38,052 nt of DNA from a virus. The notes below the pieces were generated by a model that searched no databases, was not told the DNA's origin, and saw only the letters and a program-made list of their open reading frames with translations. Positions 5,061 through 34,270 of the stretch are shown here, piece after piece. The DNA lies in the IMG/VR virus record IMGVR_UViG_3300028393_000159, positions 1 through 38,052 of that record; one strand, written 5' to 3'. The translations under genes and the position numbers were made by a program. Numbering within the stretch: position 1 is the stretch's first letter; every line of letters begins with the position of its first letter.

Positions 5061-5298
5061 AACAAATAAATATATGAATCAAGACATGGCTTATTTAGAA
5101 GATTGGATATTTCATTACAATGCTTATGCAAATCAATGGGCAGCTTTTCCACGTGAAACATATACACAATATTGGAATGATTATGAAGATATTAATGTAT
5201 TAAGAAGTAAAGAACTACCAACTCTATTAGACTTATTACATAGAACAAAAGGTGATAAAATTCTTATAGAAAAACTAACTAGTGGAAAAAACAAGTAA
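5050..5298 (+). CDS. Hypothetical protein, 82 aa
   Basis: A small aromatic-rich protein (many Tyr and Trp between residues 15 and 45) without a recognised domain. The start may be the ATG at 5050, overlapping the upstream gene, or the ATG at 5074 after eight codons. The second has an A-rich leader. The end overlaps the terminase start by 17 nt, so the two are probably translationally coupled. Function unknown. Confidence 0.75.
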   Translation: MINKTNKYMNQDMAYLEDWIFHYNAYANQWAAFPRETYTQYWNDYEDINVLRSKELPTLLDLLHRTKGDKILIEKLTSGKNK

Positions 5299-7495
5299 TT
5301 ATATAGAAGTACCCACTTACACTGATGGTGTTTGGAGTGTAACACCTTTTAGTAAACGTGAAGACTTTCGTGACTTTGTACGTTCTGTATTTAAAGATGC
5401 TGGTCCTGATGAGGGTTATGGTTTCACTGTAAGTATTTCTAAACAGTTTAATCATGAAGCCAGAAGGTTTCAAAGATTGGGATACTACTGTCAAGCTCCA
5501 TTAAAGAGTAAAGACTTTATGGCCTATTGGGATGACCAAAAAGCTAAATGTAGATTCGGTGTAATATATAAAGAAGGTGATCTTACATGGTATCTTACTA
5601 GAGACTATTATATGTGGATTAACTTTCTACCTATATATAATAAAGAGATTAAACAGTTTGGATTTGCTGATGTACGAGATACACAATATCATTTAGCTTT
5701 ATATGAATGGCTTGGGGAACTATCTTACAAACATCTACCCATACTTAAGAAACGTCAGATAGCTAGTTCTTATTTTCATATGGGTAAGCTTATTAATGCT
5801 TATTGGTTTGAAGAAGGTTCTGTTAATAAAATAGGAGCTAGTCTTAAAGATTATATATCTGAGAAAGGTTCTTGGAGGATGCTTAATGAATATAGGAACT
5901 TCCTTAATGAACATACAGCTTGGTATAGACCATCTGAGCCTGATAAGATATTTTCATGGCAGCAGAGAATTAAAGTGAGGGTAAACAACAGGGATACGTA
6001 CAGAGGTAATAAATCAATCATTACAGGCACGTCCTTTGAGAAAGATCCTACAAATGGTGTGGGTGGTCCCGTAACATATTTCTTTCATGAAGAAGCTGGT
6101 ATTGCCCCTAAGATGATGGACACATATGAGTTTATGAGACCTGCTATGCAATCTGGTATGGTGACTACAGGAACATTTATAGCAGCAGGATCAGTGGGTG
6201 ATCTTGAACAATGTCAGCCCCTCAAAGATATGATCTTATATCCTCATAGGTATGGGATGTTTGCTGTTAAGAGTAACCTAATAGATAATAAAGGAACCAT
6301 TGGAGAAACCGGCTTATTTATACCAGAGCAGTGGTCGATGCCTCCGTATATAGATGAAGCTGGTAACTCCTTGGTTAAAGAAGCTTTAGAAGCCATTATA
6401 GAAGAACGTAAGCAGTGGTATAAAGATCTTCCTCCTGATCAATACCAGCTACGTATATCTCAGAAACCCACCACTATAGAAGAAGCTTTTGCTACTAGAA
6501 AAGAATCTGTATTTCCTCCACATCTTGTATCTAAACAACTACAACGTATTCAAGATAAAGAATATTCTGTTGAATATTTAGAACTCTCTAGAGATGCTGA
6601 AGGTAAAATTATAGATAAAGTTTCTAGGAAAGCTCCTATTATGGAATTTCCTTTAAGTAAAAAAGCTGAAGACAAAGAAGGAGTGATATGTATATATGAA
6701 CGTCCATGTAAAGATCCTCAATTTGGAATGTACTATGCTTCTATAGATCCTGTTAGTGAAGGTAAGACTACTACATCAGATTCTCTTTGTTCTATATATG
6801 TATATAAGAATGCTGTAGAAGTTATAAAGAATGATGGAGAAAATTTAACACACACTATAGAAAGAGATGGTATTGTAGCTAGTTGGTGTGGAAGGTTTGA
6901 TGATATTAAAAAAACCCACGAGAGATTAGAAATACTTGTAGAATGGTATAATGCATGGACACTTGTAGAAAATAACGTATCATTGTTTATTCATTATATG
7001 ATGGAGAGAAAAAAGCAACGTTATTTAGTACCTAAGAACATGATGTTATTCTTGAAAGATATAGGAGCTAATTCTAATGTATTCCAAGAATACGGCTGGA
7101 AAAACGTGGGTACACTATTTAAAGGAAATATACTTTCATATGGTATTGAGTTTTTACAAGAGGAGTTAGACCAAGAAGTAGAACCAGATGGAACAATAAC
7201 TAAGACAATATATGGAGTGGAACGTATTCCAGATCCTATGTTACTTAAAGAGATGCAAGCTTATTATGATGGACTAAACGTGGATAGACTTGTAGCATTT
7301 TGTGCACTAGTAGCATTTGCTAAAGTACAACAAGCTAATAGAGGGATATCTAAACGTACAGAGGTTACAAATAAAAACTTGGACGTCTCCCGAAAATTTA
7401 GTAAATTAAATCATAGTCCCTTTAGACATATTGGAGCCAATAAAGGAAGCTCCATGATGAGTCCTAAACGTAATGCATTTAAAAATATAAGATGA
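5282..7495 (+). CDS. terL: Terminase large subunit, 737 aa
   Basis: This is the ATP-driven packaging motor and headful or site nuclease. A Walker A-like segment lies at 156-164 (KKRQIASSY) and lacks the usual GKS/T. Walker B with its catalytic acidic pair is at 265-273 (TYFFHEEAG). A coupling motif, GTFIAAGS, is at 297-304. The RNase H-like nuclease domain starts with ASIDPV (Asp489), with further acidic residues at LVENN (Glu563) and GLNVDRLVAF (Asp668). The length fits crAss-like and related Bacteroidota phage terminases, which carry a long N-terminal part. The start is GTG 5282, overlapping the upstream gene. The stop TGA overlaps a small gene's ATG. Portal and capsid genes follow. Confidence 0.95.
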   Translation: MEKTSNYIEVPTYTDGVWSVTPFSKREDFRDFVRSVFKDAGPDEGYGFTVSISKQFNHEARRFQRLGYYCQAPLKSKDFMAYWDDQKAKCRFGVIYKEGDLTWYLTRDYYMWINFLPIYNKEIKQFGFADVRDTQYHLALYEWLGELSYKHLPILKKRQIASSYFHMGKLINAYWFEEGSVNKIGASLKDYISEKGSWRMLNEYRNFLNEHTAWYRPSEPDKIFSWQQRIKVRVNNRDTYRGNKSIITGTSFEKDPTNGVGGPVTYFFHEEAGIAPKMMDTYEFMRPAMQSGMVTTGTFIAAGSVGDLEQCQPLKDMILYPHRYGMFAVKSNLIDNKGTIGETGLFIPEQWSMPPYIDEAGNSLVKEALEAIIEERKQWYKDLPPDQYQLRISQKPTTIEEAFATRKESVFPPHLVSKQLQRIQDKEYSVEYLELSRDAEGKIIDKVSRKAPIMEFPLSKKAEDKEGVICIYERPCKDPQFGMYYASIDPVSEGKTTTSDSLCSIYVYKNAVEVIKNDGENLTHTIERDGIVASWCGRFDDIKKTHERLEILVEWYNAWTLVENNVSLFIHYMMERKKQRYLVPKNMMLFLKDIGANSNVFQEYGWKNVGTLFKGNILSYGIEFLQEELDQEVEPDGTITKTIYGVERIPDPMLLKEMQAYYDGLNVDRLVAFCALVAFAKVQQANRGISKRTEVTNKNLDVSRKFSKLNHSPFRHIGANKGSSMMSPKRNAFKNIR

Positions 7496-7607: not shown

Positions 7608-10367
7608 ATGCAAATATATAATGCCTTACAAGTAAAAGCTGGAGCTAAGACAGAGTACAATAAAATGGGTACTCTTATTCAACCATTTCAATTTGTTTCT
7701 GAAAAAGAAAAAGATGATCAATGGAGAGCTTGGAACTTAGATTGGTTAGAGTTTCAGGGAATGAAACAGCTTAGACGTAATGCTAGACGTTTAATGAAAA
7801 ACTACAAGCTTGCTAAAGGTATTATAGATAAGCAAGATTATATTGTAGAGGAAGATAATGAAATGGGTGATCTTATTGATACTTTAACTAAAGAAGATGT
7901 ATCAGCATTTGAACTTAAGTTTTATCCCATTATTCCTAATGTAATTAATGTATTAACTAATGAATTCTCTAAAAGGAGTTCAAGAATTATGTTTAGGGCT
8001 GTGGATGATCAGTCTTATAATGAAATGTTGGAAGCTAAAAGAGGTATGATAGAGGAAACTCTTTTATCTCAAGCTCAACAAAAACAAATGATGAAGATGG
8101 CAGAGATGGGGTTAGATCCTCAGAGTGATGATGCTAAACAACAAATGGATCCTGAAAAAATTAAATCTCTTCCTGAGATTGAATCATTCTTTAAAAAAGA
8201 TTATAGATCTATGATTGAAGAATGGGCATCTCATCAAAAATCTGTAGATGAAGAAAGGTTTAAAATGCAAGAATTAGAAGAAAGAGCTTTCAGAGATAGT
8301 CTTATTACTGATAGAGAGTTTTGGCATTTTGATATGAAAGAAGATGATTATGAGGTGGAGTTATGGAACCCACTACTTACATTTTATCATAAATCTCCTG
8401 ACATTCGTTACATATCTCAAGGTAACTGGGTGGGCAAACTTGATATGATGTCTATATCAGATGTTGTAGATAAATTTGGATGGATGATGACAGAAGAACA
8501 ATTAGCAGCTTTAGAAGCTATCTATCCTGCAAGATCTGCTGGGTATGCTATACAAGGATATCAAAATGATGGTACATATTATGATCCCACAAGATCTCAC
8601 GAATGGAATACACAAATGCCTTCTTTGGCTTATAGACAGTTTACTTCTTTGTATGATGCCGGAAGTCAGTTCGGAGATATTGTACAATGGATCTTATCAG
8701 ACTCTGAAGACTTGCAAGACTTTGGTAAAAGCTACATGCTTAGGGTTTCAACTATCTATTGGAAGAGTCAAAGAAAGGTTGGACACCTCACTAAAATAAC
8801 TACTACAGGAGAATTTATTACTGATATAGTTAGTGAAGAATATAAAGTTACAGACAGACCTGAATATGATACATCAATATATAAACAAAAAAGTAAAGAC
8901 AATTTAATATTTGGTGAACATATAGATTGGATATGGATTAATGAAGTGTGGGGTGGGGTTAAGATTGGACCTAACCGTCCAGCTTTCTGGGGAATGAATA
9001 ATCCAGGTGGTATTAATCCAATATACCTAGGACTTAATGGAGGTAAACCAGGACGTGTTCCTTTTCAATTTAAAGGAGATACTACAGTGTATGGTTGTAA
9101 ACTTCCTGTAGAAGGTGCAGTATTTGGAGATAGAAATACTAGATCTGTAGCATTAGTAGATCTTATGAAACCATTCCAAATTGGTTATAATATTGTAAAC
9201 AACCAGATAGCTGATATCTTAGTGGATGAACTTGGTACTGTTATTATGCTTGATCAAAATGCTCTACCACGTCACTCATTGGGTGAAGACTGGGGAAAGA
9301 ATAATCTATCTAAAGCATATGTAGCAATGAAGAACTTTCAAATGCTTCCTTTAGATACATCTATTACAAACACTGAGAATGCTCTTAACTTTCAACACTA
9401 TCAAGTGCTTAATTTAGAACAAACACAACGTTTGCTTTCTAGGATTAAATTGGCTGATTATTTTAAGAATGAAGCATTTGCTGTAATAGGATTGAATCAA
9501 CAACGTATGGGTATGCAGATAGCTCAAGAGCAAACTGCTACAGCTATAGAACAGGCTACTAATGCTTCCTATGCACAGACAGAACAATACTTTATACAGC
9601 ATAGTGATAACCTTATGCCTAGAGTACATCAGATGAGAACTGACCTTGCTCAATATTATCATTCTAAAAATCCTAGTCTTCGTTTACAATATATTACAGG
9701 AGCTGATGAAAAAGTTAACTTTCAAATGAATGGTACTGATCTTCTTTTAAGAGATCTTAATATATTCTGTACTACTAAAACTAACTCTCGTTCTGTTATG
9801 GAACAGCTTAAACAACTAGCTGTTACTAACAATACAATGGGTGCTTCTATATATGATCTTGGAAATGTTATTAAATCTGAGTCTATAGGAGAACTTACAG
9901 GTGTTCTTAAAGCTGCTGAAGAAAAAGTTAATAGACAAAAACAAGAAGAACAACAGCATCAACAAGAACTTCAACAACAGCAACAACAGTTTGAACAGCA
10001 ACAATTACAAGCTCAACAGAAATTTAAAGCTGAAGAGTCTGAGAAAGATAGACAAGCTAGAATTATTGAAGCTCAGATTAGAGGTGCTGGTATGGGAGCT
10101 GCTGTAGATATTAACAAAAATCAGCAGTCTGACTATCTTGATGCTTTAAAACATATAGAAGATACAAAGAATTTCCAGGAAACTATGAATTTTAAACGTG
10201 AACAGGAAGTTAATAAAACATCTTTAACTAGTCAGAAGCATGAATTAGAAAGAGAAAAATTACAAACTCAAAAAGATGTAGCTAGTAAACAGTTACAAAT
10301 TGCTGAAACTAATAAAAATAAATATGATGTAGCTGCATCTAAAATGAATAATCAGAAAAAGAAATAA
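7608..10367 (+). CDS. Portal protein, 919 aa
   Basis: The dodecameric head vertex through which DNA is packaged. The sequence follows the large portal type of Bacteroidota phages. It has a segment FELKFYPIIPNVINVLTNEF with a conserved acidic/basic helix, a helical region with EWASHQKSVDEERFKMQELE, and then ELWNPLLTFYHKSPDIRYIS near residues 250-270. Residues 770-919 form a long Gln/Glu/Lys-rich coiled coil (many Gln repeats), probably the barrel or crown facing the capsid interior. It lies between the terminase and the scaffold-like gene, the canonical order. The length (919) is at the high end for portals. Confidence 0.9.
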   Translation: MQIYNALQVKAGAKTEYNKMGTLIQPFQFVSEKEKDDQWRAWNLDWLEFQGMKQLRRNARRLMKNYKLAKGIIDKQDYIVEEDNEMGDLIDTLTKEDVSAFELKFYPIIPNVINVLTNEFSKRSSRIMFRAVDDQSYNEMLEAKRGMIEETLLSQAQQKQMMKMAEMGLDPQSDDAKQQMDPEKIKSLPEIESFFKKDYRSMIEEWASHQKSVDEERFKMQELEERAFRDSLITDREFWHFDMKEDDYEVELWNPLLTFYHKSPDIRYISQGNWVGKLDMMSISDVVDKFGWMMTEEQLAALEAIYPARSAGYAIQGYQNDGTYYDPTRSHEWNTQMPSLAYRQFTSLYDAGSQFGDIVQWILSDSEDLQDFGKSYMLRVSTIYWKSQRKVGHLTKITTTGEFITDIVSEEYKVTDRPEYDTSIYKQKSKDNLIFGEHIDWIWINEVWGGVKIGPNRPAFWGMNNPGGINPIYLGLNGGKPGRVPFQFKGDTTVYGCKLPVEGAVFGDRNTRSVALVDLMKPFQIGYNIVNNQIADILVDELGTVIMLDQNALPRHSLGEDWGKNNLSKAYVAMKNFQMLPLDTSITNTENALNFQHYQVLNLEQTQRLLSRIKLADYFKNEAFAVIGLNQQRMGMQIAQEQTATAIEQATNASYAQTEQYFIQHSDNLMPRVHQMRTDLAQYYHSKNPSLRLQYITGADEKVNFQMNGTDLLLRDLNIFCTTKTNSRSVMEQLKQLAVTNNTMGASIYDLGNVIKSESIGELTGVLKAAEEKVNRQKQEEQQHQQELQQQQQQFEQQQLQAQQKFKAEESEKDRQARIIEAQIRGAGMGAAVDINKNQQSDYLDALKHIEDTKNFQETMNFKREQEVNKTSLTSQKHELEREKLQTQKDVASKQLQIAETNKNKYDVAASKMNNQKKK

Positions 10368-11788: not shown

Positions 11789-13408
11789 ATGGCAACCCCA
11801 GTTTTAAACAATGGTATATTCCTACGTGACAATAACTACACAACTAGTTCTCACGTAGATTCGTACCACCTTTCTAACCTCCTTAAGAGTGCTGAACCTA
11901 CAGATTTAGGTCCAGTTGATCTTTGGGCAATGGCTCAAAAAGTAGAAATGCCTTTGTATCAAATGTCTTCTTTTGGTGGTAAGAACGTTATTATGGTAGA
12001 TAATAACCGTGGTGAGTACAAATGGCAGATTCCTGTTGCTCAGGATCTTCCTTACATTTTAGAAGATATTGAATCAACTAATACCACTAAAGGTATTGAT
12101 GGTCAAACTTTTAAAATCAAAATTAACAAACGTTATTTTGGTCATGGTGATATCATCACTTATGATAAATATAACGGTGTGGAAATGTACATTACTGTAG
12201 ATGATATTATTCCTGCAGGTGATGGTTTTATTTACACAGTACAGTTAGTTAATAATGACAACACTAAATATTTGGATAACAAGTATTTGAAGGTTGGTAC
12301 TAAAGTGTTCCGTAAAGGTTCTGCTCGTGGTGAGTATGGAGAAAGATTCTCTGACATTGGTAATGTATCTGCTGGTTTCCGTGAATTCTACAACTATGTA
12401 GGAGGAGCAGAAGCTCACGTTCACTATTCTATTTCTAGTCGTGCTGACTTGATGATGAAAGGTGGTATGAAAGCTGATGGTACAGTTCCTGTAGTTGAAA
12501 TGTGGAGAAACTTCGATAAGAATGTTGATCCTTCAGTTACCAACTTGGAAACAATGGCTGAGAAAATGGGTAAAGACTATGTAAAGAAAGCTTATGCTAA
12601 TGGTCAATTAACTCGTTCTTTCTTGACTACATTGGAAGCAGCTCATTTGACTAAAATTGCTAATGACATTGAGACTTACTTAATGTGGGGTCAAGGTGGT
12701 AAAGTTAGACAAGATGGTCCAGATGATATTCGTTTGTCAGTGGGTCTTTGGAAACAATTGGATAACTCTTACAAGAGAATCTACAACAAAGCTTCTTTCA
12801 ACTTGGATCTTTTCAAATCTGAAATTTTCAACTTCTTCAATGGTAAAGTTGAATTTAAAGGACCAGATCCTCAACGTGCATTGATTGTACAAACTGGTAT
12901 GGGTGGTATGAAACTTGTAAATGAAGCAATTAAGAAAGAAGCAGTTAACTCTGGTCTTGTATTGAATGCTCATGAGCTTGGTGCTGTTACTGGTTCTGGT
13001 ATGGATTTGAATTTTGGATTTGCATACACTAGCTATATCATTCCATTCTTGGCTAACGTTAAGTTTGTTTTGAATCCAGCTTTTGATAATGTACATACAA
13101 ATGACATTGAAAACCCAATCATTGATGGTTTCCCATTAAGTTCATATAATTTCATTATCTTTGATATTACTGATAACACTAATGACAATATTTACTTGTT
13201 GAAATTGTCTTGGGATAATCAATTAAAATGGTTCTATCAAAATGGTACTATGGATTATATGGGTCGTACTCAAGGTTTCCAATCTTCTGGTAACTTTAAC
13301 GGCTACCGTGTATTCATGACACAAACAATGCCTGCTATTTGGGTTAAAGATCCAACTAAAGTATTGAAGATTGTTATGAGAAACCCTGTAACTGGTGGAT
13401 CATTCTAA
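11789..13408 (+). CDS. Major capsid protein, 539 aa
   Basis: The position (portal, scaffold, then this gene), the length and the isolated transcription unit ending in a strong terminator identify the main head protein, expected to have the HK97 fold. Features include the N-terminal arm (FLRDNNYTTSSHVDSYHLSN), beta-rich segments around 95-190 and long helices in 255-340. Codon use leans to GTT, GGT, AAC and TTG more than the neighbours, fitting high expression. It carries the AACCCTTAAATT leader. I see no signal for proteolytic maturation. The call is by context and sequence character, not by an alignment. Confidence 0.9.
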   Translation: MATPVLNNGIFLRDNNYTTSSHVDSYHLSNLLKSAEPTDLGPVDLWAMAQKVEMPLYQMSSFGGKNVIMVDNNRGEYKWQIPVAQDLPYILEDIESTNTTKGIDGQTFKIKINKRYFGHGDIITYDKYNGVEMYITVDDIIPAGDGFIYTVQLVNNDNTKYLDNKYLKVGTKVFRKGSARGEYGERFSDIGNVSAGFREFYNYVGGAEAHVHYSISSRADLMMKGGMKADGTVPVVEMWRNFDKNVDPSVTNLETMAEKMGKDYVKKAYANGQLTRSFLTTLEAAHLTKIANDIETYLMWGQGGKVRQDGPDDIRLSVGLWKQLDNSYKRIYNKASFNLDLFKSEIFNFFNGKVEFKGPDPQRALIVQTGMGGMKLVNEAIKKEAVNSGLVLNAHELGAVTGSGMDLNFGFAYTSYIIPFLANVKFVLNPAFDNVHTNDIENPIIDGFPLSSYNFIIFDITDNTNDNIYLLKLSWDNQLKWFYQNGTMDYMGRTQGFQSSGNFNGYRVFMTQTMPAIWVKDPTKVLKIVMRNPVTGGSF

Positions 13409-14381: not shown

Positions 14382-15398
14382 ATGAGTAGTGTAACTATTG
14401 TGGAGAAATACCCACAGAACAAAAAATCTAGTATTGCAATTCGTCCTTATTTTGACTCTTTAGTAGACAACATGGGACTTCAAAAGTACGGTCTTAGTCT
14501 ATTTGATGGTGCTTTTCATGAAGAAACAATTGCATGTTTAGAAATGAATGGTATTAAAAGATATGTTACTGGTCTTAATGAATATGCTCCTGATGTTAAA
14601 AATCTTCCTTTAGATGAGCAAGAAGCTAAAGTGAAACAAATTAGACAAGTGGTAGCTCAGTTAGAAAAAGAACTTGCTGCCAATGTTATTGATCCCAATG
14701 ATGAAATGTTTTGGAATAAAGTAAAATTACTTAAACAAGACAATAGTGATTTTTGGGATAAGATTAAAATTAGATGTGGTAATGAACCAGTACATTTAGA
14801 ACCTAATAATGATCCCTATGATCTTATTAGATTATATACTATAGAAGCTGGTGGTTTTTCATTAGTAGCTAGATCTTTAGAAGAAGCTCGTAAAATGTCA
14901 GTTCCTCCTAAGTTTTATCTTGATAGACTAGAAGAATCAGCATCTCTTAATACAGAAGTTAAGAAGCTTAAAAATAAAGCTCTTGCAGAACTTCAAAAGT
15001 TATTTGATAAGAATCAGAACAAGTTGTTCTATGTAGCTAAGAACTTAGATATCAATGGAGCTCAATACAAGAAGTCTACTCCTAATGATATTATCTATGA
15101 CAACATGGATAAGTTTATTAATGGTGAATTAGTAGATAAGAATAAAAAACAAACTCCTCAAAGATTTCTTGATGCTGCCAATCTTGATATGGAAACATTA
15201 AAGATTAAAGCAATAGCTAAAGAAAGTAGTTATCATAGATATATTGCTACTAAAGCTGATGGATTTATTTATCATATGTCTTCTACTACTATGATGGGTC
15301 GTAATTTAACAGATGTATTTGAGTATTTAAGAAACCCATTAAATGAAGAAATCTTAGTAGATCTTACTAAGAAAATTGAGAAACATTGGAATCAATAA
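14382..15398 (+). CDS. Conserved-type head-region protein, 338 aa
   Basis: The protein is soluble, charged and mostly helical. Lys/Glu-rich helices span residues 85-110 and 185-220, and the segment IKAIAKESSYHRYIATKADG lies near the C-terminus. I do not recognise a function. Its place in the head operon and its moderate, uniform composition suggest an internal virion or assembly protein. It starts with the AAACCAAC leader, like the scaffold gene, so it may be co-regulated with it. The next gene begins 16 bp after its stop. Confidence 0.85.
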   Translation: MSSVTIVEKYPQNKKSSIAIRPYFDSLVDNMGLQKYGLSLFDGAFHEETIACLEMNGIKRYVTGLNEYAPDVKNLPLDEQEAKVKQIRQVVAQLEKELAANVIDPNDEMFWNKVKLLKQDNSDFWDKIKIRCGNEPVHLEPNNDPYDLIRLYTIEAGGFSLVARSLEEARKMSVPPKFYLDRLEESASLNTEVKKLKNKALAELQKLFDKNQNKLFYVAKNLDINGAQYKKSTPNDIIYDNMDKFINGELVDKNKKQTPQRFLDAANLDMETLKIKAIAKESSYHRYIATKADGFIYHMSSTTMMGRNLTDVFEYLRNPLNEEILVDLTKKIEKHWNQ

Positions 15399-15414
15399 CC
15401 TTAAAAATATATAA

Positions 15415-15765
15415 ATGAAAAAGAAAATTGGAACTTCAAAGTCAGTAAAAAAATATGATATGGGTGGTGAACAAGATCCTAAACCAATGACAATGGTTCA
15501 ATTGAAAAAAAAGTATCCAAATGCTGATACAACAGCAGCAGGAGATACACGTTTTCAAGAATATAATGCATATGCTCCAAAGAAGTTTATAACTCAAATA
15601 AGAGATACAGATGCAGCTTTTGATAAAAAATATGGCAAAGGTAAATTACCAAAAAATAAAGTAGGTGGCACTGTAAAAAAATCTACTCCTAAAGCTACAG
15701 GAATGAATAAAGTTGCTTCTAAAGGAAATATGATGAAAAAAGGTGGATCTATAAAAAAGAAATAA
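15415..15765 (+). CDS. Small basic protein with MKKGGS tail, 116 aa
   Basis: The protein is Lys-rich throughout (MKKKIGTSKSVKKYDMGG at the start) with a C-terminal MMKKGGSIKKK. The 20 bases encoding MKKGGSI/M at 15733-15752 are repeated exactly at 15927-15946 in a neighbouring gene, showing recent duplication or strong constraint. It probably interacts with nucleic acid or acidic virion proteins. No enzymatic motif is seen. It is followed one base after its stop by another small basic gene. Confidence 0.8.
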   Translation: MKKKIGTSKSVKKYDMGGEQDPKPMTMVQLKKKYPNADTTAAGDTRFQEYNAYAPKKFITQIRDTDAAFDKKYGKGKLPKNKVGGTVKKSTPKATGMNKVASKGNMMKKGGSIKKK

Positions 15766-15766
15766 A

Positions 15767-15916
15767 ATGGCTAAAGATAAAAAATGGATACAGAAAGCAG
15801 TTAACCCAGCACATAAGGGTTACTGTACACCTATGACTAAAGCTACTTGTACTCCTAAAAGGAAAGCTTTAGCTATGACATTTAAAGCAATGGCTAAAAA
15901 CAAAAAAAATAAATAA
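15767..15916 (+). CDS. Small conserved-type basic protein, 49 aa
   Basis: This frame runs from ATG 15767 to TAA 15914-15916, filling the gap between two small genes exactly. The product contains WIQKAVNPAHKGYCTPMTKA followed by TCTPKRKALAMTFKAM. I recall this WIQ-A-PxHKGxC-TCTPxRKALAxTFK pattern as a short, widely distributed phage protein of unknown role, which makes a real gene likely. It is very basic, with two cysteines (residues 20 and 28) that could bind a metal or form a disulfide. Confidence 0.85.
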   Translation: MAKDKKWIQKAVNPAHKGYCTPMTKATCTPKRKALAMTFKAMAKNKKNK

Positions 15917-15917
15917 T

Positions 15918-16220
15918 ATGTACAGCATGAAAAAAGGTGGATCTATGGGTCCCAAGAAAAAAGGTGGAATGGCTGCTTATGAAAAATCTTCTTATGATAA
16001 GAAGATGGATGCTAAAGGAGCTCATGACAAAGAAGGTTCTGAAAAAGATATGGCTGCTGATAAAAAAGCTGCTACTAAAATGGGCTATATGAAAAAAGGG
16101 GGAAGTGTTAAAGGTAAAACTCCAATGACTCCAGCTCAAAAAAAGTTTGCTGCATTAGCTGCTCCTAAGAATAAAATTACATTTGCTGATAAAATTGCAG
16201 GTGCTAAAAAGAAAAAATAA
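15918..16220 (+). CDS. Lysine-rich small protein with two MKKGGS motifs, 100 aa
   Basis: The N-terminus is MYSMKKGGSMGPKKKGGM. A middle region rich in Lys, Asp and Ala carries a second MKKGGS at residues 58-63. The C-terminal part, TPAQKKFAALAAPKNKITFA, followed by a Lys-rich tail, looks like the most conserved part. The protein has no hydrophobic core long enough for an enzyme. It lies within a string of five small basic genes in the head region. A DNA-condensing or assembly role is possible but unproven. Confidence 0.85.
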   Translation: MYSMKKGGSMGPKKKGGMAAYEKSSYDKKMDAKGAHDKEGSEKDMAADKKAATKMGYMKKGGSVKGKTPMTPAQKKFAALAAPKNKITFADKIAGAKKKK

Positions 16221-16369
16221 TGGCAAGACAAATGATTAAAAGAGCTGATGGCTCTACTTCTCAAAGAGGACTATGGGATAATATTAGAGCTGCTAAAGGC
16301 TCTGGTAAAAAACCTACACCCGAGATGCTTAAACAAGAACGTAAAATAAAAGCTAAATCTAAAAAGTAA
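16220..16369 (+). CDS. Small basic protein, 49 aa
   Basis: The frame starts at an ATG overlapping the preceding stop (TAATG) and ends in TAATGA overlapping the next start, so it is coupled on both sides. The product has KRADGSTSQRGLWDNIRAAK in its first half and a basic tail, KPTPEMLKQERKIKAKSKK. I recall the ADGSxSQRGLWDNIR pattern from small proteins in other Bacteroidota phages; function unknown. The packing and composition make this a confident gene. Confidence 0.85.
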   Translation: MARQMIKRADGSTSQRGLWDNIRAAKGSGKKPTPEMLKQERKIKAKSKK

Positions 16370-17346
16370 TGAGAAGCTATAACATTAGACCTAAAAAACC
16401 TTTTGTACTTCGTAAACCAGATGGTTCTATTGCTGCTGGTTCTCTAGTTTATGCATATAAGAATCCTAAACCAGGAGAGTGGATTGAAGTAATAAATGAA
16501 AATACAGATTTTAGAAATCCAACTTCATATACCAATACAGTAAGGATTACATATCCTAATGCTGTATCAGCTCAAGCATTTGGAGATTATACTAAATTAT
16601 TTTTAAAGAAGTTAGGGTATGCTGCAAATGACACATTATTATCTTTATCAGTTTGTGCTGATGATATTAATGCTCCTAGTTTTGTAGATGAAATGAATTT
16701 AGGACAACATCCTTTATCATTAAATGAATATTTAGGACCATTTATGTCTGGTGGTCTTGCTGGCTATCCTCATACAGGTGCTACAGGATTAGGTGCTTAT
16801 GCTAGTCATGTTACTAATACAGGAAATTTATTTGTTATGAATATGCCACATATTGGTATATCTAGCAATGGTACAGTAGGATCTATTATTAGAAAAGGAC
16901 AAACAGGACAAAATACTTCTTGTGGTGCTGTATCTGCAGCTGTAAGTTGGGCTATTAATAATGCTGGTACACCTGTACAATCAAATTTTCCTGATGATTA
17001 TCAACAATTCTTTTTAACTAATATAATAGCACAATCAGCTAATAGAACATTATTAGCTCCATTAACTGGATCAGTTACACCTGCTCAAATGGTAATAGCT
17101 ACAGAAATTATAAGAGCTGCTGGTCAAGATTTTTTAACTGTTTCTACTAGAGGTATAAAATCAATAGGTGGAACAAATTTAATTAATGGTAGTACAAGAG
17201 ATATATTTTTTATGAGTGGTACATTTATTAATGTTGATGATGGATATGAAGCATATATAGATGTAGTTAGTTTTCAAAAACTAGCAAAAGGTGCATCATC
17301 TTTTACTGATTTAACAACAACTTTTAAAGCAGGATTACCTAAATAA
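16369..17346 (+). CDS. LCIB-type beta-carbonic-anhydrase-like protein, 325 aa
   Basis: Residues 90-195 match, from memory, the core of the LCIB/C family of beta-carbonic anhydrases. The parts are SVCADDIN with Cys96, GGLAGYPHTGATGLGAYASH at 128-147, MPHIGIS with His161, then GSIIRKGQTG and SCGA with Cys185. Cys-His-Cys is the expected zinc set, and acidic residues at 98-99 could serve the active site. Residues 1-60 are an extra N-terminal part, perhaps for virion attachment. LCIB proteins act in CO2 uptake in algae. Here the gene lies in the head/neck operon, so the product could be carried in the virion or be a repurposed structural fold. Catalysis is unproven. Confidence 0.75.
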   Translation: MRSYNIRPKKPFVLRKPDGSIAAGSLVYAYKNPKPGEWIEVINENTDFRNPTSYTNTVRITYPNAVSAQAFGDYTKLFLKKLGYAANDTLLSLSVCADDINAPSFVDEMNLGQHPLSLNEYLGPFMSGGLAGYPHTGATGLGAYASHVTNTGNLFVMNMPHIGISSNGTVGSIIRKGQTGQNTSCGAVSAAVSWAINNAGTPVQSNFPDDYQQFFLTNIIAQSANRTLLAPLTGSVTPAQMVIATEIIRAAGQDFLTVSTRGIKSIGGTNLINGSTRDIFFMSGTFINVDDGYEAYIDVVSFQKLAKGASSFTDLTTTFKAGLPK

Positions 17347-17347
17347 T

Positions 17348-17593
17348 ATGGCAAAGTCTCCAGCATGGCAAAGAAAAGAAGGTAAGTCTCCTACGGGTGG
17401 ACTTAATGCAAAAGGACGTGCTTCTTTAAAAGCTGCAGGTCATGATATAAAACCTCCTCAACCAGGAGGTGGTCCTAGAAAAAAATCATTTTGTGCTAGG
17501 ATGAAAGGAATGAAAGCTAAACTTACTTCAGCTAAGACAGCTAATGATCCTCAAAGTAGAATTAACAAGTCACTCAGAAAATGGAAATGCTAA
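17348..17593 (+). CDS. Small basic protein, resembles DUF6321, 81 aa
   Basis: The first part, SPAWQRKEGKSPTGGLNAKG, followed by RASLKAAG, is a pattern I associate with the short phage and bacterial family DUF6321. The middle has PRKKSFCARMKGM and the end is SLRKWKC. It is strongly basic. It begins two bases after the previous stop and ends directly before the next gene's ATG, continuing the coupled run of small proteins. Function unknown. The family name is from memory and should be treated as tentative. Confidence 0.85.
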   Translation: MAKSPAWQRKEGKSPTGGLNAKGRASLKAAGHDIKPPQPGGGPRKKSFCARMKGMKAKLTSAKTANDPQSRINKSLRKWKC

Positions 17594-18292
17594 ATGAATA
17601 ATAACCTCTTACAGATTAAAATAAAGCAGAGACTTAATAAACTAGCTTCTTTGGACTATGATAATCTAGAGTGTTGGCAAGTTCAAGAAGCATTTAATAA
17701 AGCTCAGTTAGAGTGGACAAGAAGACAATTATATTCTATTAATGCTCGTAAAGAAGGAGAAGAACAAACTAGTGGTCTTGTAGATGATCTTCAAAGATTA
17801 TTAAAGCATGAGATATTACCATCTGTAAATAAAGAAATATATTATCAGGCAGCTATTCCTTCTGATTATCTTCATTATGTAAGAACAGATGTATTTGCTA
17901 AAACAGAATGTTGTCCTGAACGTAGAATATCAGTATATGAAGTAGAAGAAGCTAATATAAGTATTATTCTCAATGATAAGAATAAACAACCTAACTTTGA
18001 ATGGGCCGAAACAGTTTCTACTAGGATGACTAATAAGCTTAAAGTGTATACAAATAATGAATTTGAAATTACACAGTGTCACTTAACTTATTACAGAAAA
18101 CCCATAGAAGTTCAGTTTAATGGTTGTGTAGATCCTAGTACAGGTACTGTATTTACAGCAGATCAAAACTGTGAGTTTAATGATGATGTAGCTGAAGTTT
18201 TAGTAGATAATGCTGCAATGATTTTAGCAGGTGATATAGAAAGTATAACACAATATCAAAGAGAACAACAAAACGTACAATCAAATAGTTAA
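17594..18292 (+). CDS. Probable neck/connector protein, 232 aa
   Basis: The N-terminal 80 residues are helical (NLECWQVQEAFNKAQLEWTR). The remainder is beta-rich, with IPSDYLHYVRTDVFAKTECC and a later LTYYRKPIEVQF. This layout fits the ring or head-tail adaptor proteins that follow the portal and capsid genes in Bacteroidota podovirus-like phages. The call is by architecture and context. The C-terminal tail is Gln/Asn-rich. The gene abuts the preceding stop and precedes the Dps-like gene. Confidence 0.7.
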   Translation: MNNNLLQIKIKQRLNKLASLDYDNLECWQVQEAFNKAQLEWTRRQLYSINARKEGEEQTSGLVDDLQRLLKHEILPSVNKEIYYQAAIPSDYLHYVRTDVFAKTECCPERRISVYEVEEANISIILNDKNKQPNFEWAETVSTRMTNKLKVYTNNEFEITQCHLTYYRKPIEVQFNGCVDPSTGTVFTADQNCEFNDDVAEVLVDNAAMILAGDIESITQYQREQQNVQSNS

Positions 18293-18297
18293 ATAAT

Positions 18298-18759
18298 ATG
18301 AGATCTTTACAAAAACCTGGAATATTTTCAGTGAGCACTGCTAGTTTATCAGCTATGATGCCTCAAGCAGAAACTTGTGCAGTGTGTATTCAAACAGCAG
18401 CTTTAGCACAAGATTTATTAAATGCTGTAACAAGCATTCACAAAATTCATCTTAAGATAACTGGGCTTGGTTCATTTGCAGCTCATAAAGCTCTTAATGA
18501 ATTTTATGATGAAATTGGGGATCATGCTGATTCAGTAGTAGAACAGTTTCAAGGAGCAGAAGAAAAGCTTTTAGAAATGCCTAATACAGCTCCTACAGAA
18601 TTAAACTCAGTGGAAGAAACTATTGACTATCTTAGAAAGTTAAAAGATAAAACTGCAGCATTACAATCTATTATGCCTCATAGTGAGATTGTTAATCAAT
18701 TAGATGAAGTGAAGAGTCTTATAGATTCTACAAAATATAAATTGTTATTCTTAAAATAA
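18298..18759 (+). CDS. Dps/ferritin-like protein, 153 aa
   Basis: The central region IHKIHLKITGLGSFAAHKAL followed by NEFYDEIGDHADSVVEQF has the Dps/ferritin layout: first-helix His (48 and 51), then His63 and Glu68/Asp71/Glu72 followed by DHAD (75-78). The length matches Dps-like subunits. I recall similar phage proteins as family DUF5856. Dps proteins oxidise and store iron and protect DNA. Here the gene is in the virion operon, so the protein could be packaged or act late in infection. It contains two early cysteines (27 and 30). Family membership is fairly secure; ferroxidase function is inferred. Confidence 0.75.
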   Translation: MRSLQKPGIFSVSTASLSAMMPQAETCAVCIQTAALAQDLLNAVTSIHKIHLKITGLGSFAAHKALNEFYDEIGDHADSVVEQFQGAEEKLLEMPNTAPTELNSVEETIDYLRKLKDKTAALQSIMPHSEIVNQLDEVKSLIDSTKYKLLFLK

Positions 18760-25865: not shown

Positions 25866-26492
25866 ATGGCACAAGGAACAACAGAAGTTAATAAAAAATA
25901 TTATTGGTTAAATGGAAACACTCATACCAAAGGACATAAATTAACTGAAGAGCATAAACAAAAAATAAGTAATTCTAGCAAAAATGTAAAAAATAAAGGA
26001 GCTTATTTTACTAAAGAATATGTTTGTACTTGCTGTGGAAATAATTACACTTCATCGAATAAAAATCCTAAATATTGTTCTAGAAGTTGTACTGCAAAAT
26101 CAAGAAAAGTTAGAAAAGGATTTTCTGTTCCTGACCATATTAAAGAAAAAATATCTAAAACATTAACAGGTAAGTATACAAAAGAAAAAGCACACCAGTG
26201 GGTAAAAGATAGAACAAAACTAAAAGACGATAGTAAAGAACGTGGAGGTCAATTGCATAGAGAATGGAGTGTTTTGGTAAAGAAAAGAGATAATTGGAAA
26301 TGTAAGATTGATAATTTAGATTGTGAAGGAAGATTAGAATCACATCATATACTATCGTGGAAAGATTATCCTGAATTAAGATATGATATAAACAATGGGA
26401 TATGTTTGTGTAAAAAACATCATCCAAGAAAAAGAAATGAAGAAATAAATTTAATATTAACATTTCAGCAAATCATTAACAACTTAAACTAA
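25866..26492 (+). CDS. HNH homing endonuclease inserted in fibre region, 208 aa
   Basis: Two NUMOD3-like helical motifs (HKLTEEHKQKIS and VPDHIKEKISKTLTGK) flank a CTCC...CSRSC zinc finger at 54-76. The HNH core, RLESHHILSW...DINNGICLCKKHH, is at 158-187, with metal and catalytic histidines present. Freestanding homing nucleases of this type spread by cutting alleles lacking them. The first six codons are identical to the start of the downstream fibre gene, and a 17-bp copy remains at 26500-26516. The gene thus appears to have inserted at that start codon. Its composition is Lys-rich and unlike its beta-rich neighbours. Confidence 0.9.
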   Translation: MAQGTTEVNKKYYWLNGNTHTKGHKLTEEHKQKISNSSKNVKNKGAYFTKEYVCTCCGNNYTSSNKNPKYCSRSCTAKSRKVRKGFSVPDHIKEKISKTLTGKYTKEKAHQWVKDRTKLKDDSKERGGQLHREWSVLVKKRDNWKCKIDNLDCEGRLESHHILSWKDYPELRYDINNGICLCKKHHPRKRNEEINLILTFQQIINNLN

Positions 26493-26516
26493 AACAGTTT
26501 GGCACAAGGAACAACA
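25867..26516 (+). mobile_element. HNH insertion flanked by 17-bp direct repeats
   Basis: TGGCACAAGGAACAACA occurs at 25867-25883 and 26500-26516. The first copy lies in the ATG of the HNH gene. The second begins the remaining fibre frame, which now reads TTG GCA CAA. The 633-bp period between the copies equals the inserted unit. No intron or intein features were seen. Confidence 0.75.
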
Positions 26517-30185: not shown

Positions 30186-31817
30186 ATGAAACCATTTAGT
30201 TCCAGTTCTGACAAAGAAAACTGTTCTCCTGTATCATCCAACTGTGTTGAATGGCAGGGGCCTTTTATAACATGTATTAATCATTGTAAAGGGGATAGTG
30301 TATCTGATATTGTATATAAACTTTCTGAAAAAGTTTGTGATTTAACAGGCACTGCTGCAGTGGGTAATGTAAATGTTACATGTCTTCTTAATAGTTGTGA
30401 TGTTTTACAAGCACCAGATGGTACACTTGGATCATTATTGCAAACTATAGTAGATGGTATTTGTTGTTCTGTGGGTACGTTAACTAAAAAAACTAATACA
30501 CTTACACAGGATACAGCTAATCTTTATAAGGAACCTATACTAACTCTTCCTACAAATTTTCAATATGTTGATCCTGCTACAGGATTACCTGTCACTCAAT
30601 TACCTCTTAGTGGTTATGCTGCTAATATAGGAACTAATGCATCTGCAATAAAAACTACTGTAGATAGACAAACTTCTCAAATTAGTAATCAAGAAATAAG
30701 AATACAAAATTTAGAAAATAGTCCTGGGTATGTTCCTCCTACAGTAACTCCATTATGTTCTTACACTGGTATTACAAGTGGTGTACCAACACAAATGAAT
30801 TTGTTATTAGCTGCTTTAGAGAATGATCATTGTAATTACAGAACAGCATTAGGAACTATTAGTAATATTTCAAATGCTTCAAGTGCTCAGTGTGCATTTC
30901 TTAGTTCATCAGCTGCATTAGGTCAGGCTGGTACAATGTCTAGTATTTCAGGTTGGAATAATACTGTTAGTAATTTTGCTCAGGCTATGCAAAATCTTTG
31001 GATTACAGTATGTGATATGAGAACTGCTGTTAATACAATTAAGCAAAACATTACACCTGATTGTTCTAAGTTCTTATTAGGATTTACAAATACTACTAAT
31101 ACAGGTAGAACAACAGTAACTCTTATATTTAATTCTCTTACTGTTATTCCAAGTGGATTTACTAACTGTCCTACATTATCTACAGTTAGTATTACAGATG
31201 GTGCTCATACATACACTAATACATTAAATCTTACTACAGTGGGTATAGATCCAGCTGGTATTACTTACACAGTGAGTGGTGCTGGTTTAGATCCTCTTCT
31301 TCCTTATACTATTACTGTTAATGGATGTTTAGTAAGTAATGGAACTACATGTAGTAAAACAGTTAGTAATACAAACACTCCTACTACAACTACTACTACT
31401 TCTACATCTACAACAACCACTTCTACTACTAGCACGACTACAACTACTACAGCTGCTATTCCACACGTTTACTATAACATAGGTGGTGGATTGAGTGGTA
31501 GACTTGATGTTATTAGAACAAGTGATAGTGCAGTTGTGTTATCTCAAGTTAGTTCAAGCACAGTTTTAAATGGACAAATAACTGTTACAAATGCTCAATA
31601 TACAATACGTGGTGTATGGGTATCAGGTAGTGGAAATATAGTAAACTTTAGAGTTTGTGATATGAATACAGGAACTGAATTATTCTATTCAACTACTCCT
31701 GCCACTGCTTCTAATACTACTGTGGATTATACATTTACATTTACAAGTGGTACTCCAAATATAATGGTATTTTTAAGAGCACAAAATGCAAGTGTACCTG
31801 CTTGTGTAGCACCATAA
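30186..31817 (+). CDS. Thr-linker fibre/adhesin-like protein, 543 aa
   Basis: The N-terminal module (18-53) has SNCVEWQGPFITC...GDSVSDIVYKL, shared in form with three following genes and probably the attachment to the virion. The middle is helical and beta-rich. A nearly pure Thr/Ser linker occupies about 399-422. Residues 426-543 form a C-terminal beta domain (with SGSGNIVNFRVCDMNTGTEL) that is paralogous to the end of the next protein. The layout (anchor, stalk, flexible Thr linker, tip domain) fits a host-binding fibre. The Thr-rich linker is a plausible O-glycosylation target given the glycosyltransferase gene downstream. Confidence 0.8.
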   Translation: MKPFSSSSDKENCSPVSSNCVEWQGPFITCINHCKGDSVSDIVYKLSEKVCDLTGTAAVGNVNVTCLLNSCDVLQAPDGTLGSLLQTIVDGICCSVGTLTKKTNTLTQDTANLYKEPILTLPTNFQYVDPATGLPVTQLPLSGYAANIGTNASAIKTTVDRQTSQISNQEIRIQNLENSPGYVPPTVTPLCSYTGITSGVPTQMNLLLAALENDHCNYRTALGTISNISNASSAQCAFLSSSAALGQAGTMSSISGWNNTVSNFAQAMQNLWITVCDMRTAVNTIKQNITPDCSKFLLGFTNTTNTGRTTVTLIFNSLTVIPSGFTNCPTLSTVSITDGAHTYTNTLNLTTVGIDPAGITYTVSGAGLDPLLPYTITVNGCLVSNGTTCSKTVSNTNTPTTTTTTSTSTTTTSTTSTTTTTTAAIPHVYYNIGGGLSGRLDVIRTSDSAVVLSQVSSSTVLNGQITVTNAQYTIRGVWVSGSGNIVNFRVCDMNTGTELFYSTTPATASNTTVDYTFTFTSGTPNIMVFLRAQNASVPACVAP

Positions 31818-31835
31818 ATTAACTTAAACTAAATC

Positions 31836-33071
31836 ATGTCTTGTACCTGTAATCAATCTATAAACTGTGATCCATGTGCTTTTTGTACACCTCCTGGTGT
31901 TACATGTCTAACAACATGTACTCCAGTAGATCCGTGTCCAGAAAAGATAGATCTTAGTTGTGTAGTATATTCAGGAGATAATGTTGGTGGTCAAGCAACA
32001 ACTGGACAATCTATTTCTCCAATTATATTAAATGCTTTAGATGCAATATTTCCATTAAGTGTATGTTGTGCTTTTACAGCAACAGCTACTCTTTTAAATC
32101 CTCCTGCTCAAAAATATACTTTTTGTTATATTGATGACAATGTATATGATGCTGTTTGTGATTGTGATGCTACTACAACTACTGTTACTGTTTACAGTAT
32201 TGATAATCCTTTAGTAGTAGGTTCTAAATTATACAGTAATGTAAACCTTACTATACCTGCTGCTCAAGGATTATATGGAGGAATGGGGCAATACATAGCT
32301 GTTATACCAACAACAGGAGAGATTATATCCATTAGTCAATGTATACCTGCTACGACAACTACTAGTAGTACAACAACTACTACGTCAACTACATCTACAA
32401 CTAGTACTACTACAACCACTACAAGAGCATGTTCTCAATTTGTATTATTTTGCTGTGGAAATTTAACAGGAACAACTAGTATTAAACCATGCTATCCTCA
32501 AACAAATGTACCATTTGTATTAGGTAATATGTATACAGATGCTAATGGATTATATTGGCTTGTTGCATTAGCATCAGGAACACCTACAGATACAACATAT
32601 GTTCCAGGAGCATTTACTTTTATAAGTGCAGGTAATGTTATAGCAGATTGTAGAGAGGCTTCAGGTTATCAACAATGTCCTGGAATACCTACAACAACAA
32701 CTAGAACACCTCTTCCAACTATTAGTTATGAATTTAATGATGTAGGTGCTACAGTAGTAATTACTAATTTAGATACTAGTACTATTGTATTTTCTGAACA
32801 TACACCAGCAGCTCCAGGTACAACTGGATTTATTCAACCTCCTTATGGTAACTATCGTGTAACAGTATCTTACTATAGTGGCAGTGGTAATATAATACAT
32901 TTTAAAGTTTGTAATATTACAACAGGATATACATTATATACTTCTGGAGCTATAACTAGTGGAGGAATATCATCTGATCAATATAATTTTATATTGTCAG
33001 CTCCTCTTAGTGCAAATAATATAAAAATAATTGTGTATACACAAAATGTAACTTTACCAAGTTGTCCATAA
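31836..33071 (+). CDS. Cys-rich Thr-linker fibre/adhesin-like protein, 411 aa
   Basis: The N-terminus is Cys-rich (MSCTCNQSINCDPCAFCTPP), followed by the anchor module LSCVVYSGDNVGG at about 40-52. A Thr/Ser linker lies at about 172-197. A middle domain follows, then a second short linker (IPTTTTRTP, about 285-293). The C-terminal domain is paralogous to that of the preceding protein, with YSGSGNIIHFKVCNITTGYTL and the ending QNVTLPSC. Disulfides or metal binding at the Cys-rich end may hold the fibre together. The mosaic, linker-joined structure suggests domain shuffling. Confidence 0.8.
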   Translation: MSCTCNQSINCDPCAFCTPPGVTCLTTCTPVDPCPEKIDLSCVVYSGDNVGGQATTGQSISPIILNALDAIFPLSVCCAFTATATLLNPPAQKYTFCYIDDNVYDAVCDCDATTTTVTVYSIDNPLVVGSKLYSNVNLTIPAAQGLYGGMGQYIAVIPTTGEIISISQCIPATTTTSSTTTTTSTTSTTSTTTTTTRACSQFVLFCCGNLTGTTSIKPCYPQTNVPFVLGNMYTDANGLYWLVALASGTPTDTTYVPGAFTFISAGNVIADCREASGYQQCPGIPTTTTRTPLPTISYEFNDVGATVVITNLDTSTIVFSEHTPAAPGTTGFIQPPYGNYRVTVSYYSGSGNIIHFKVCNITTGYTLYTSGAITSGGISSDQYNFILSAPLSANNIKIIVYTQNVTLPSCP

Positions 33072-33081
33072 TAGTATTAAT

Positions 33082-33312
33082 ATGTCAAAACCAGTAAATA
33101 TAATAATTAATAGTCATGGTGCAGGTGTTGGACCTTTTAATTTGTATGCACTAAATCATCTTGGTGATATTATTCAAACAATTGAATTAAATGTACCATT
33201 ATCAAAATTAACTGTGGGATATAACATTTTTAATGTATCAGATGCTGCTGAGGCTATTAGAATACAATCTAATAATACTCTGTGTACAACAATAGTTAAT
33301 GCTACCTTTTAA
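33082..33312 (+). CDS. Small adhesin-cluster protein, 76 aa
   Basis: A small beta-rich protein (MSKPVNIIINSHGAGVGPFN at the start) lacking the Cys-rich anchor and Thr linker of its neighbours. It could be a fibre subunit or chaperone. The gene sits between two Thr-linker proteins with 10- and 19-bp gaps. No family is recognised. Confidence 0.75.
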   Translation: MSKPVNIIINSHGAGVGPFNLYALNHLGDIIQTIELNVPLSKLTVGYNIFNVSDAAEAIRIQSNNTLCTTIVNATF

Positions 33313-33331
33313 AAAATAAATAATAAAAAAT

Positions 33332-34270
33332 ATGTATTATTCATGTGGATGTTCTTGTAATTGTGGAGATGATCCTTGTGGTTGTCAAGCAACCCCATGC
33401 TATAGTTGCATGACCACTAGTACAACCACCACTACAACACGTAATCCTAATTGTGAGCCATGTGATGAATTGTATAATTGTGATTGTATTATTTATAATG
33501 GTCCTGATTTAATATGTTATGGTGTACATCATGGAGATAATTTATGTAAGTTATTAGAAATAGCTGCATCTAATCTTCCTAGTTGTACAACAACTACAAC
33601 TGTTGCTGTAACCACTACAACTACATGTCCGTGTTTTAGTTATAATTTAACTAATACAGGTGCTCAAGGATCAACATTTAGTGCAAGCTATGTTCCTTGT
33701 AAAAGTTCAAAAGAAACAATTGAATACCTTCCATACAAAAGTCATAAAACTATTTGTGTAACTCCTCATTCTATTCCTACTACTGTTGCAGGAACAGGAA
33801 CAATATTATTAGATGGATGTTGTATAACTCCACCACCTCCTCCTCCACAAATTAAAAGATGCAGTCTTCCTTATGACTATCCAGCAATAGAAAAGTTTGG
33901 TGATGGCTTTCCACATACATTTACATTAAATAGTATGGTGTTAAATGGTGTAGAATATGTTACATCTACTACACCTGTTCTTCATGTAAATACACCAGCT
34001 GATCTAGTTATTGGAATAGGTTTAAACAATCAAACATATCCTATGAATATAAATGATTGGTTAACTATTATTGCTAAAGGTAGTGGATTTGTATTTTATG
34101 ATAATGTTACTGTAATTGATTCTCCTAGTTCAGATTCAACACTTAATATATCTATTACAAGTAATTGTGATGGTAGTGATCTTCATTATAATATTGATTT
34201 TACAATAGGTGTTAGTCATGATAATGATGGTAGTATTCCTTTTACTTCTTTTCAATGTAACTTAATTTAA
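33332..34270 (+). CDS. Cys-rich Thr-linker protein with FTLNS-type domain, 312 aa
   Basis: Order: Cys cluster MYYSCGCSCNCGDDPCGC; Thr linker at 27-36; anchor module CDCIIYNGPDLICYGVHHGD at 50-69; a second Thr linker at 86-98; a small Cys-containing beta domain at 99-164 (ending in GTILLDGCC); a poly-Pro hinge at 167-172; and a C-terminal domain at about 180-310. The C-terminal domain has FTLNSMVLNGVEY, YPMNINDWL and GFVFYDN. That domain appears twice more in the next protein, with the DNA at 33917-33959 nearly identical to 34598-34640. It is probably a receptor-binding tip. Confidence 0.8.
   Translation: MYYSCGCSCNCGDDPCGCQATPCYSCMTTSTTTTTTRNPNCEPCDELYNCDCIIYNGPDLICYGVHHGDNLCKLLEIAASNLPSCTTTTTVAVTTTTTCPCFSYNLTNTGAQGSTFSASYVPCKSSKETIEYLPYKSHKTICVTPHSIPTTVAGTGTILLDGCCITPPPPPPQIKRCSLPYDYPAIEKFGDGFPHTFTLNSMVLNGVEYVTSTTPVLHVNTPADLVIGIGLNNQTYPMNINDWLTIIAKGSGFVFYDNVTVIDSPSSDSTLNISITSNCDGSDLHYNIDFTIGVSHDNDGSIPFTSFQCNLI

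Follow-up and report, generated by a model that had tools for sequence, protein, structure and literature searches.

Introduction

The LCIB family of carbonic anhydrases is already known, and its described members closest to the protein reported here are PtLCIB4 of Phaeodactylum and the 'CCM related protein' 6KFS of the algal plastid system. LCIB and LCIC of Chlamydomonas belong to the same family and share its fold, but are more distant. As purified recombinant Chlamydomonas LCIB and LCIC were reported inactive in the passage of PMC8825250 that cites Jin et al., 2016, membership in the LCIB/C family alone would not prove activity. Among viruses, a carbonic anhydrase gene of the giant virus of Karenia brevis (vOTU6) was interpreted as auxiliary (PMC13037468). 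However, vOTU6 is a eukaryotic giant virus, and the parts of that source dealing with its enzyme describe neither a virion tag nor a position in a virion operon. In the crAss-like phage phiCrAss001, the small proteins gp21 and gp29 use their N-terminal 38 or 58 residues to anchor a C-terminal domain, described as fibre or Ig-like, on the capsid; the same structure paper left the head-fibre anchors of most crassvirus groups open (PMC10172136).

Here we describe a phage gene that joins an LCIB-type carbonic anhydrase domain to an N-terminal tag. While the enzyme family itself is known, its occurrence with an exchangeable tag in the virion operons of phages is new. No match to the protein, to a distant homologue or to the tag alone was found in INPHARED (50,697 phage records), and the predicted structure had no match in BFVD at E 0.001 or better. 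PHROGs yielded no LCIB family; phrog_22781 was considered as one, since it matched one homologue (E 9.5e-5), but it was absent in whole-record searches and was rejected. A literature search found no publication joining LCIB with phages.

Identification of the phage and its putative host

The window, i.e., the whole stretch of DNA analyzed, is a virus record of 38,052 bases, and all features given below lie on its plus strand. Upstream of the LCIB gene it encodes, in order, the terminase large subunit (5282..7495; phrog_6681, E 7e-62), a P22-like portal protein (7608..10367; P22_portal, E 2e-9; phrog_6547, E 4e-92) and a Crassvirus major capsid protein (11789..13408; Crass_capsid, E 1.4e-33). 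The best-ranked matches of the terminase were crAss-like phages of gut samples (25–27% identity). Nearest to the capsid protein among phage records were Leptolyngbya phage Lbo-JY46 (29%, 99% coverage), human-gut crAss-like phages and Cellulophaga phages. By its capsid and terminase sequences the window is a crAss-like phage (Crassvirales), placed here in the order and in no named family. Contamination with host DNA was ruled out, as the LCIB gene is flanked on both sides by virion genes of the phage and is present in many other phage contigs.

A Shine-Dalgarno-like site preceded only 4 of the 42 genes checked in the window. Together with the relatives named above, this hints at a Bacteroidota host, although it is no proof of one. 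Because the nearest capsid protein is that of Lbo-JY46, a cyanophage was also considered; psbA (PF00124) was missing from all 25 records searched, although this absence leaves room for hosts that may be cyanobacterial. Lbo-JY46 (L186, PP438436.1) was recorded from a cyanobacterium, yet its portal, capsid and neck genes group with these crAss-like phages.

P0001 belongs to the LCIB group

The LCIB gene (16369..17346), identified by its open reading frame, Pfam and PDB matches and predicted fold, encodes a protein of 325 residues, P0001. It starts with ATG, and the overlap with the upstream stop codon claimed in a preliminary description of this DNA is real, amounting to one base (TAATG, with the shared A at 16369). 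Residues 67–302 aligned to positions 3–219 of the 223 in the PF18599 (LCIB_C_CA) profile with 120.1 bits (E 1.1e-34), the curated cut-off being 25 bits. A search of PDB sequences with P0001 returned LCIB-family proteins only (E 7e-20 to 4e-6).

An AlphaFold2 model of P0001, built on 32 aligned homologues, reached a mean pLDDT of 83 and a pTM of 0.79. Foldseek matched it to PtLCIB4 (5B5Y; E 1.2e-16, TM 0.86 on target), and the VIA-align Z score was 27.1 to both 6KFS and 5B5Y, 21–22 to LCIB/LCIC and 10.5–12.6 to canonical beta-carbonic anhydrases; the best fold matches in the PDB were all LCIB-family proteins (Z 21–27). With the structural match covering residues 51–320, the carbonic anhydrase domain was placed at residues 51–325 (16519..17346). 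Identity to PtLCIB4 and 6KFS in the structural alignment was 23–24%. The Cys-x-Asp-x-Arg pattern of canonical beta-carbonic anhydrases does not occur in P0001, which reads C96-A-D-D-I. In its predicted fold P0001 resembles the beta-carbonic anhydrases, yet it belongs to the LCIB group. LCIB/C membership had been proposed from the letters of the DNA, and both the profile search and the fold comparison (Z 27) now bear it out. The dN/dS of the gene against its relatives was 0.22–0.44.

The active site is conserved in phage and bacterial homologues

The open reading frame, Cys96, His161, Cys185 and GGLAGYPHTGATGLGAYASH were all found at the residues named in the preliminary description. The SSCGA-like signature listed with them is likewise present as a motif, but its letters read TSCGA. 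The zinc ligands are Cys96, within the Cys96-Ala97-Asp98 codons (16654..16662), His161 (16849..16851) and Cys185 (16921..16923); further site residues are Asp98, His147 (16807..16809) and Arg175 (16891..16893). Counting only homologues whose sequence spans the sites, Cys96, Asp98 and His147 were kept in 77/77 phage and 51/51 bacterial proteins, and His161, Arg175 and Cys185 in 77/77 and 50/50, respectively. All six residues were also invariant in the alignment with the PDB members; PtLCIB4 and 6KFS share with P0001 the fold, the Cys/His/Cys set, Asp98, His147 and Arg175, and likewise have no Arg beside the first Cys. At that position P0001 has Ala and most phages Ser, and each of the 77 phage homologues has one or the other, never Arg. 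In numbering derived from the alignment, residue 97 corresponds to Ser47 of PtLCIB4 and His147 to His88, the positions mutated in 5B5Z and 5B60.

Since the six site residues are invariant across PDB members, phage and bacterial homologues and the protein adopts the LCIB fold in the model, the catalytic center is intact by sequence and predicted fold, and zinc binding and catalysis are predicted.

The gene occupies a variable slot in the virion operon

The LCIB gene and five small open reading frames fill a variable slot (15399..17593) between two virion-operon genes. The left border gene (14382..15398) is a homologue of Lbo-JY46 XAI97414 (profile E 5e-16). The right one (17594..18292) is homologous to XAI97413 of the same phage and also to gp062 of Cellulophaga phage phi4:1 (profile E 7e-21), a virion protein according to its MS/MS-based annotation. 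The positions of the border genes adjoin in phi4:1 and Lbo-JY46 (the left border of phi4:1, gp063, being matched by position only), while 2.2 kb separates them in the window. With TerL, portal and Crassvirus capsid upstream and virion-protein homologues downstream, the virion-operon setting described earlier for the gene was confirmed.

Upstream of LCIB the slot holds a Lys/Gly-rich ORF of 116 residues (15415..15765), a conserved ORF of 49 residues (15767..15916), a Lys/Gly-rich ORF of 100 residues with MKKGG motifs (15918..16220) and a second conserved ORF of 49 residues, whose stop overlaps the LCIB start (16220..16369). A conserved ORF of 81 residues, matching PHROG families of unknown function, follows LCIB (17348..17593). 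Arrays of small Lys/Gly-rich proteins with MKKGG or KMKKGG motifs (15415–16369 in the window) fill the slot in many relatives (e.g., L248, L253, L254, and L265).

A capsid-anchored scan detected at least 577 relatives, of which 80 were kept, 51 of these with the whole slot. The slot measured 60 bp or less in 21 of the 51, and LCIB lay within the fetched stretch in only 4 of the 80 kept from the at least 577. In several further relatives LCIB occupies the same slot, and in L113 and L116 it lies one gene further right. As the slot is often nearly empty and LCIB is rare among close relatives, LCIB is a patchy accessory gene within the virion operon and not a core structural gene.

Several other features of these records were observed. 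The genes close to LCIB include one for a ferritin/Dps-like protein (DUF5856, phrog_858), both in the window (18298–18759) and in a distant crAss-like group (L016, 6119–6538; L156, 7135–7548). The LCIB alleles of L005, L006, and L008 look mosaic, two allele types alternating in blocks, which suggests recombination within the gene among close relatives. Elsewhere in the window, an endonuclease-like ORF (25866–26492; HNH-like by eye) starts with MAQGTT; the next gene, at 26499, has the same first residues, as though its start had been duplicated by an insertion. Near the right end, several large proteins (30186–34270) contain Thr-rich linkers that resemble those of the relatives' tag proteins, and are probably surface or tail adhesins.

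An N-terminal tag is shared with unrelated phage proteins

While cellular LCIB homologues start at the enzyme domain (about 230 residues), the phage proteins bear lineage-specific N-terminal extensions. In P0001 the extension contains a module of residues 1–45 (16369..16503), with strands at 10–15, 27–29, and 37–40, delimited by its recurrence in other proteins and its confident folding. A profile of the crAss-like extension detected 13 non-LCIB proteins of related phages (E 1e-10 to 2e-14), which differ in their C-terminal parts, several of these being long Thr-rich stalks. The N-terminal 60 residues had been taken as unique; this no longer holds, as a module of about 45 residues there recurs in these 13 unrelated proteins. 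In whole records, the module was present in all 14 crAss-like LCIB carriers and in none of the six T4-like ones. Its strands were predicted alike in P0001 and in an unrelated protein of L016, in whose model (mean pLDDT 49) the tag was the sole confident part.

Because the module recurs on unrelated C-terminal parts, including stalks, and is predicted to fold alike in both proteins, it seems to behave as a docking tag that may bind the particle. Within the window the tag occurs on the LCIB protein only, which counts against docking. The working principle of gp21 and gp29 of phiCrAss001 is the one proposed for the LCIB tag, whereas the C-terminal domain carried by the phage protein is that of an enzyme family. 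No sequence relation between the tag and the gp21 and gp29 anchors was detected (hhalign probability 0.5 and 0.2%, respectively, against single sequences).

A second set of phages carries LCIB with other tags

Of 30 LCIB-carrying records tested, 13 encode a Crassvirus capsid protein; among 20 that lie outside the crAss-like set, 12 have a T4-type Gp23 capsid protein. In this second set, LCIB comes immediately after the major capsid protein in L025 and L030 and after the portal in L021 (no Gp23 match), and precedes the tail sheath in L130. The tags of these LCIB proteins differ from the crAss-like tag, yet are common to neighboring proteins. The tag in L015 also occurs on a protein of 480 residues ending in a baseplate wedge tail-fibre connector domain and on one of 550 residues with a Pro/Thr-rich stalk; the tag in L031 recurs on an LRR-containing (adhesin-like) protein, that in L032 on two proteins, and that in L127 is 51% identical to a neighbor of 69 residues. 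That one design recurs with several distinct tags argues most strongly for a putative docking on the virion. Compared with phage records, the N-terminal domains of two LCIB proteins of this set gave weak matches, the best (E 0.05) to the tail spike of a Flavobacterium phage.

Two LCIB genes stand in tandem in six contigs (L012, L013, L017, L023, L026, and L136), three of them from Gp23 records. The second copy has no N-terminal tag, and the catalytic residues are retained in those copies that form part of the 32-sequence alignment; a pairing of tagged and untagged LCIB is possible.

Origin and bacterial relatives

In a phylogenetic tree all phage LCIBs fell on one side of a branch with support 99/99, and the only bacterial row joining them in the larger group was one Chitinophagaceae contig; because the sequences were collected through conserved peptide patterns, bacterial branches absent from the tree could alter this picture. 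The crAss-like and T4-like proteins were not cleanly split, as L127, a Gp23 record, fell inside the crAss-like set with weak support. This intermingling in the tree suggests that unrelated phages have exchanged the enzyme domain.

Bacterial LCIB homologues (from Bacteroidota, Balneolota and others) share the catalytic set with the phage protein but, besides their shorter length, have no tag and often stand directly after a PEP carboxylase gene. This was the case in 27 of 52 bacterial loci, the 27 being among L034–L086, with a gap of −55 to 90 bp in all but one (e.g., L049 3223–6702, L062 3045–6585, and L068 2963–6606), mostly in Prolixibacteraceae and other Bacteroidota. The pair is likely a carbonic anhydrase–carboxylase operon of heterotrophic Bacteroidota, and because of this adjacency the family probably serves bicarbonate supply in these bacteria.

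Discussion

As an intact-looking enzyme bears a tag common to stalk-like proteins and is encoded between virion genes, an enzyme converting CO2 and bicarbonate is probably worn on the particles. On balance, we lean toward P0001 being an active LCIB-type zinc beta-carbonic anhydrase that an exchangeable tag attaches to the virion. The N-terminal beta module of about 45 residues would fix the protein to the particle, and the same phages would use this tag for other displayed domains, while the C-terminal domain would be a functional enzyme, catalyzing the conversion between CO2 and HCO3− plus H+. The accessory gene would move in and out of the variable slot in the late virion operon, and unrelated T4-like phages would have reached the same arrangement with other tags. 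Bound to the particle, the enzyme would most likely alter the local CO2, bicarbonate or pH, either where the phage meets the host surface or where particles assemble. We know of no established phage biology that requires a carbonic anhydrase outside the cell. The preliminary description had already raised a virion-borne enzyme, which gains indirect support from the gene position, the shared tag and the T4-like parallel; all LCIB carriers are metagenomic contigs, and virion placement is deduced from gene position and tags.

Alternatively, the protein could be an auxiliary metabolic enzyme that is soluble, is produced late in infection and acts in the host cytoplasm. There it would provide bicarbonate for carboxylations (PEP carboxylase, acetyl-CoA carboxylase, carbamoyl phosphate) while virions are being made, and the N-terminal module would serve another purpose. 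The intact active site, the PEP carboxylase neighborhood of the bacterial homologues and a patchy distribution typical of auxiliary genes all agree with such an enzyme. Nevertheless, we consider it unlikely: the cellular homologues are untagged while the phage tags are common to stalk, adhesin-like or tail proteins, and the gene is repeatedly found among virion genes in unrelated phages.

The tag could also package the enzyme inside the head or tail as cargo to be ejected into the host early in infection. Both capsid and tail of crassviruses do contain stored cargo proteins (PMC10172136), and the slot is rich in small basic Lys/Gly-rich proteins that could be internal. Yet the crAss-like tag is also found on Thr-rich stalks and the T4-like tags on LRR and tail-connector regions; exterior display fits these partners better, and makes cargo improbable.

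A repurposed, non-catalytic LCIB fold serving as a binding or structural domain, the other option of the preliminary description, would agree with the joining to a presumed structural tag and with the inactivity of purified LCIB and LCIC as given in that passage of PMC8825250, but is very improbable because every active-site residue, including the zinc ligands, Asp98, His147 and Arg175, is kept in all phage homologues counted, the tag-less second copies of the 32-sequence alignment keep the site residues too, and the first Cys is adjoined by Ser or Ala where the S47R variant of PtLCIB4 has Arg.

For the virion-docked enzyme, the broader proposal, which we advance tentatively, is that at least two unrelated phage lineages may wear an active carbonic anhydrase on their outside, on exchangeable tags, and so set the local CO2, bicarbonate or pH at the host. 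The finding would extend the apparent cargo and decoration of phage particles to a metabolic enzyme, and opens to experiment the question of whether particles can influence inorganic carbon chemistry. It also reveals modular tags in crAss-like phages from the environment. At least 159 environmental viral contigs can now be assigned a named enzyme that is missing from the phage collections and libraries searched. In bacteria, the pairing with PEP carboxylase gives the family a likely physiological role.
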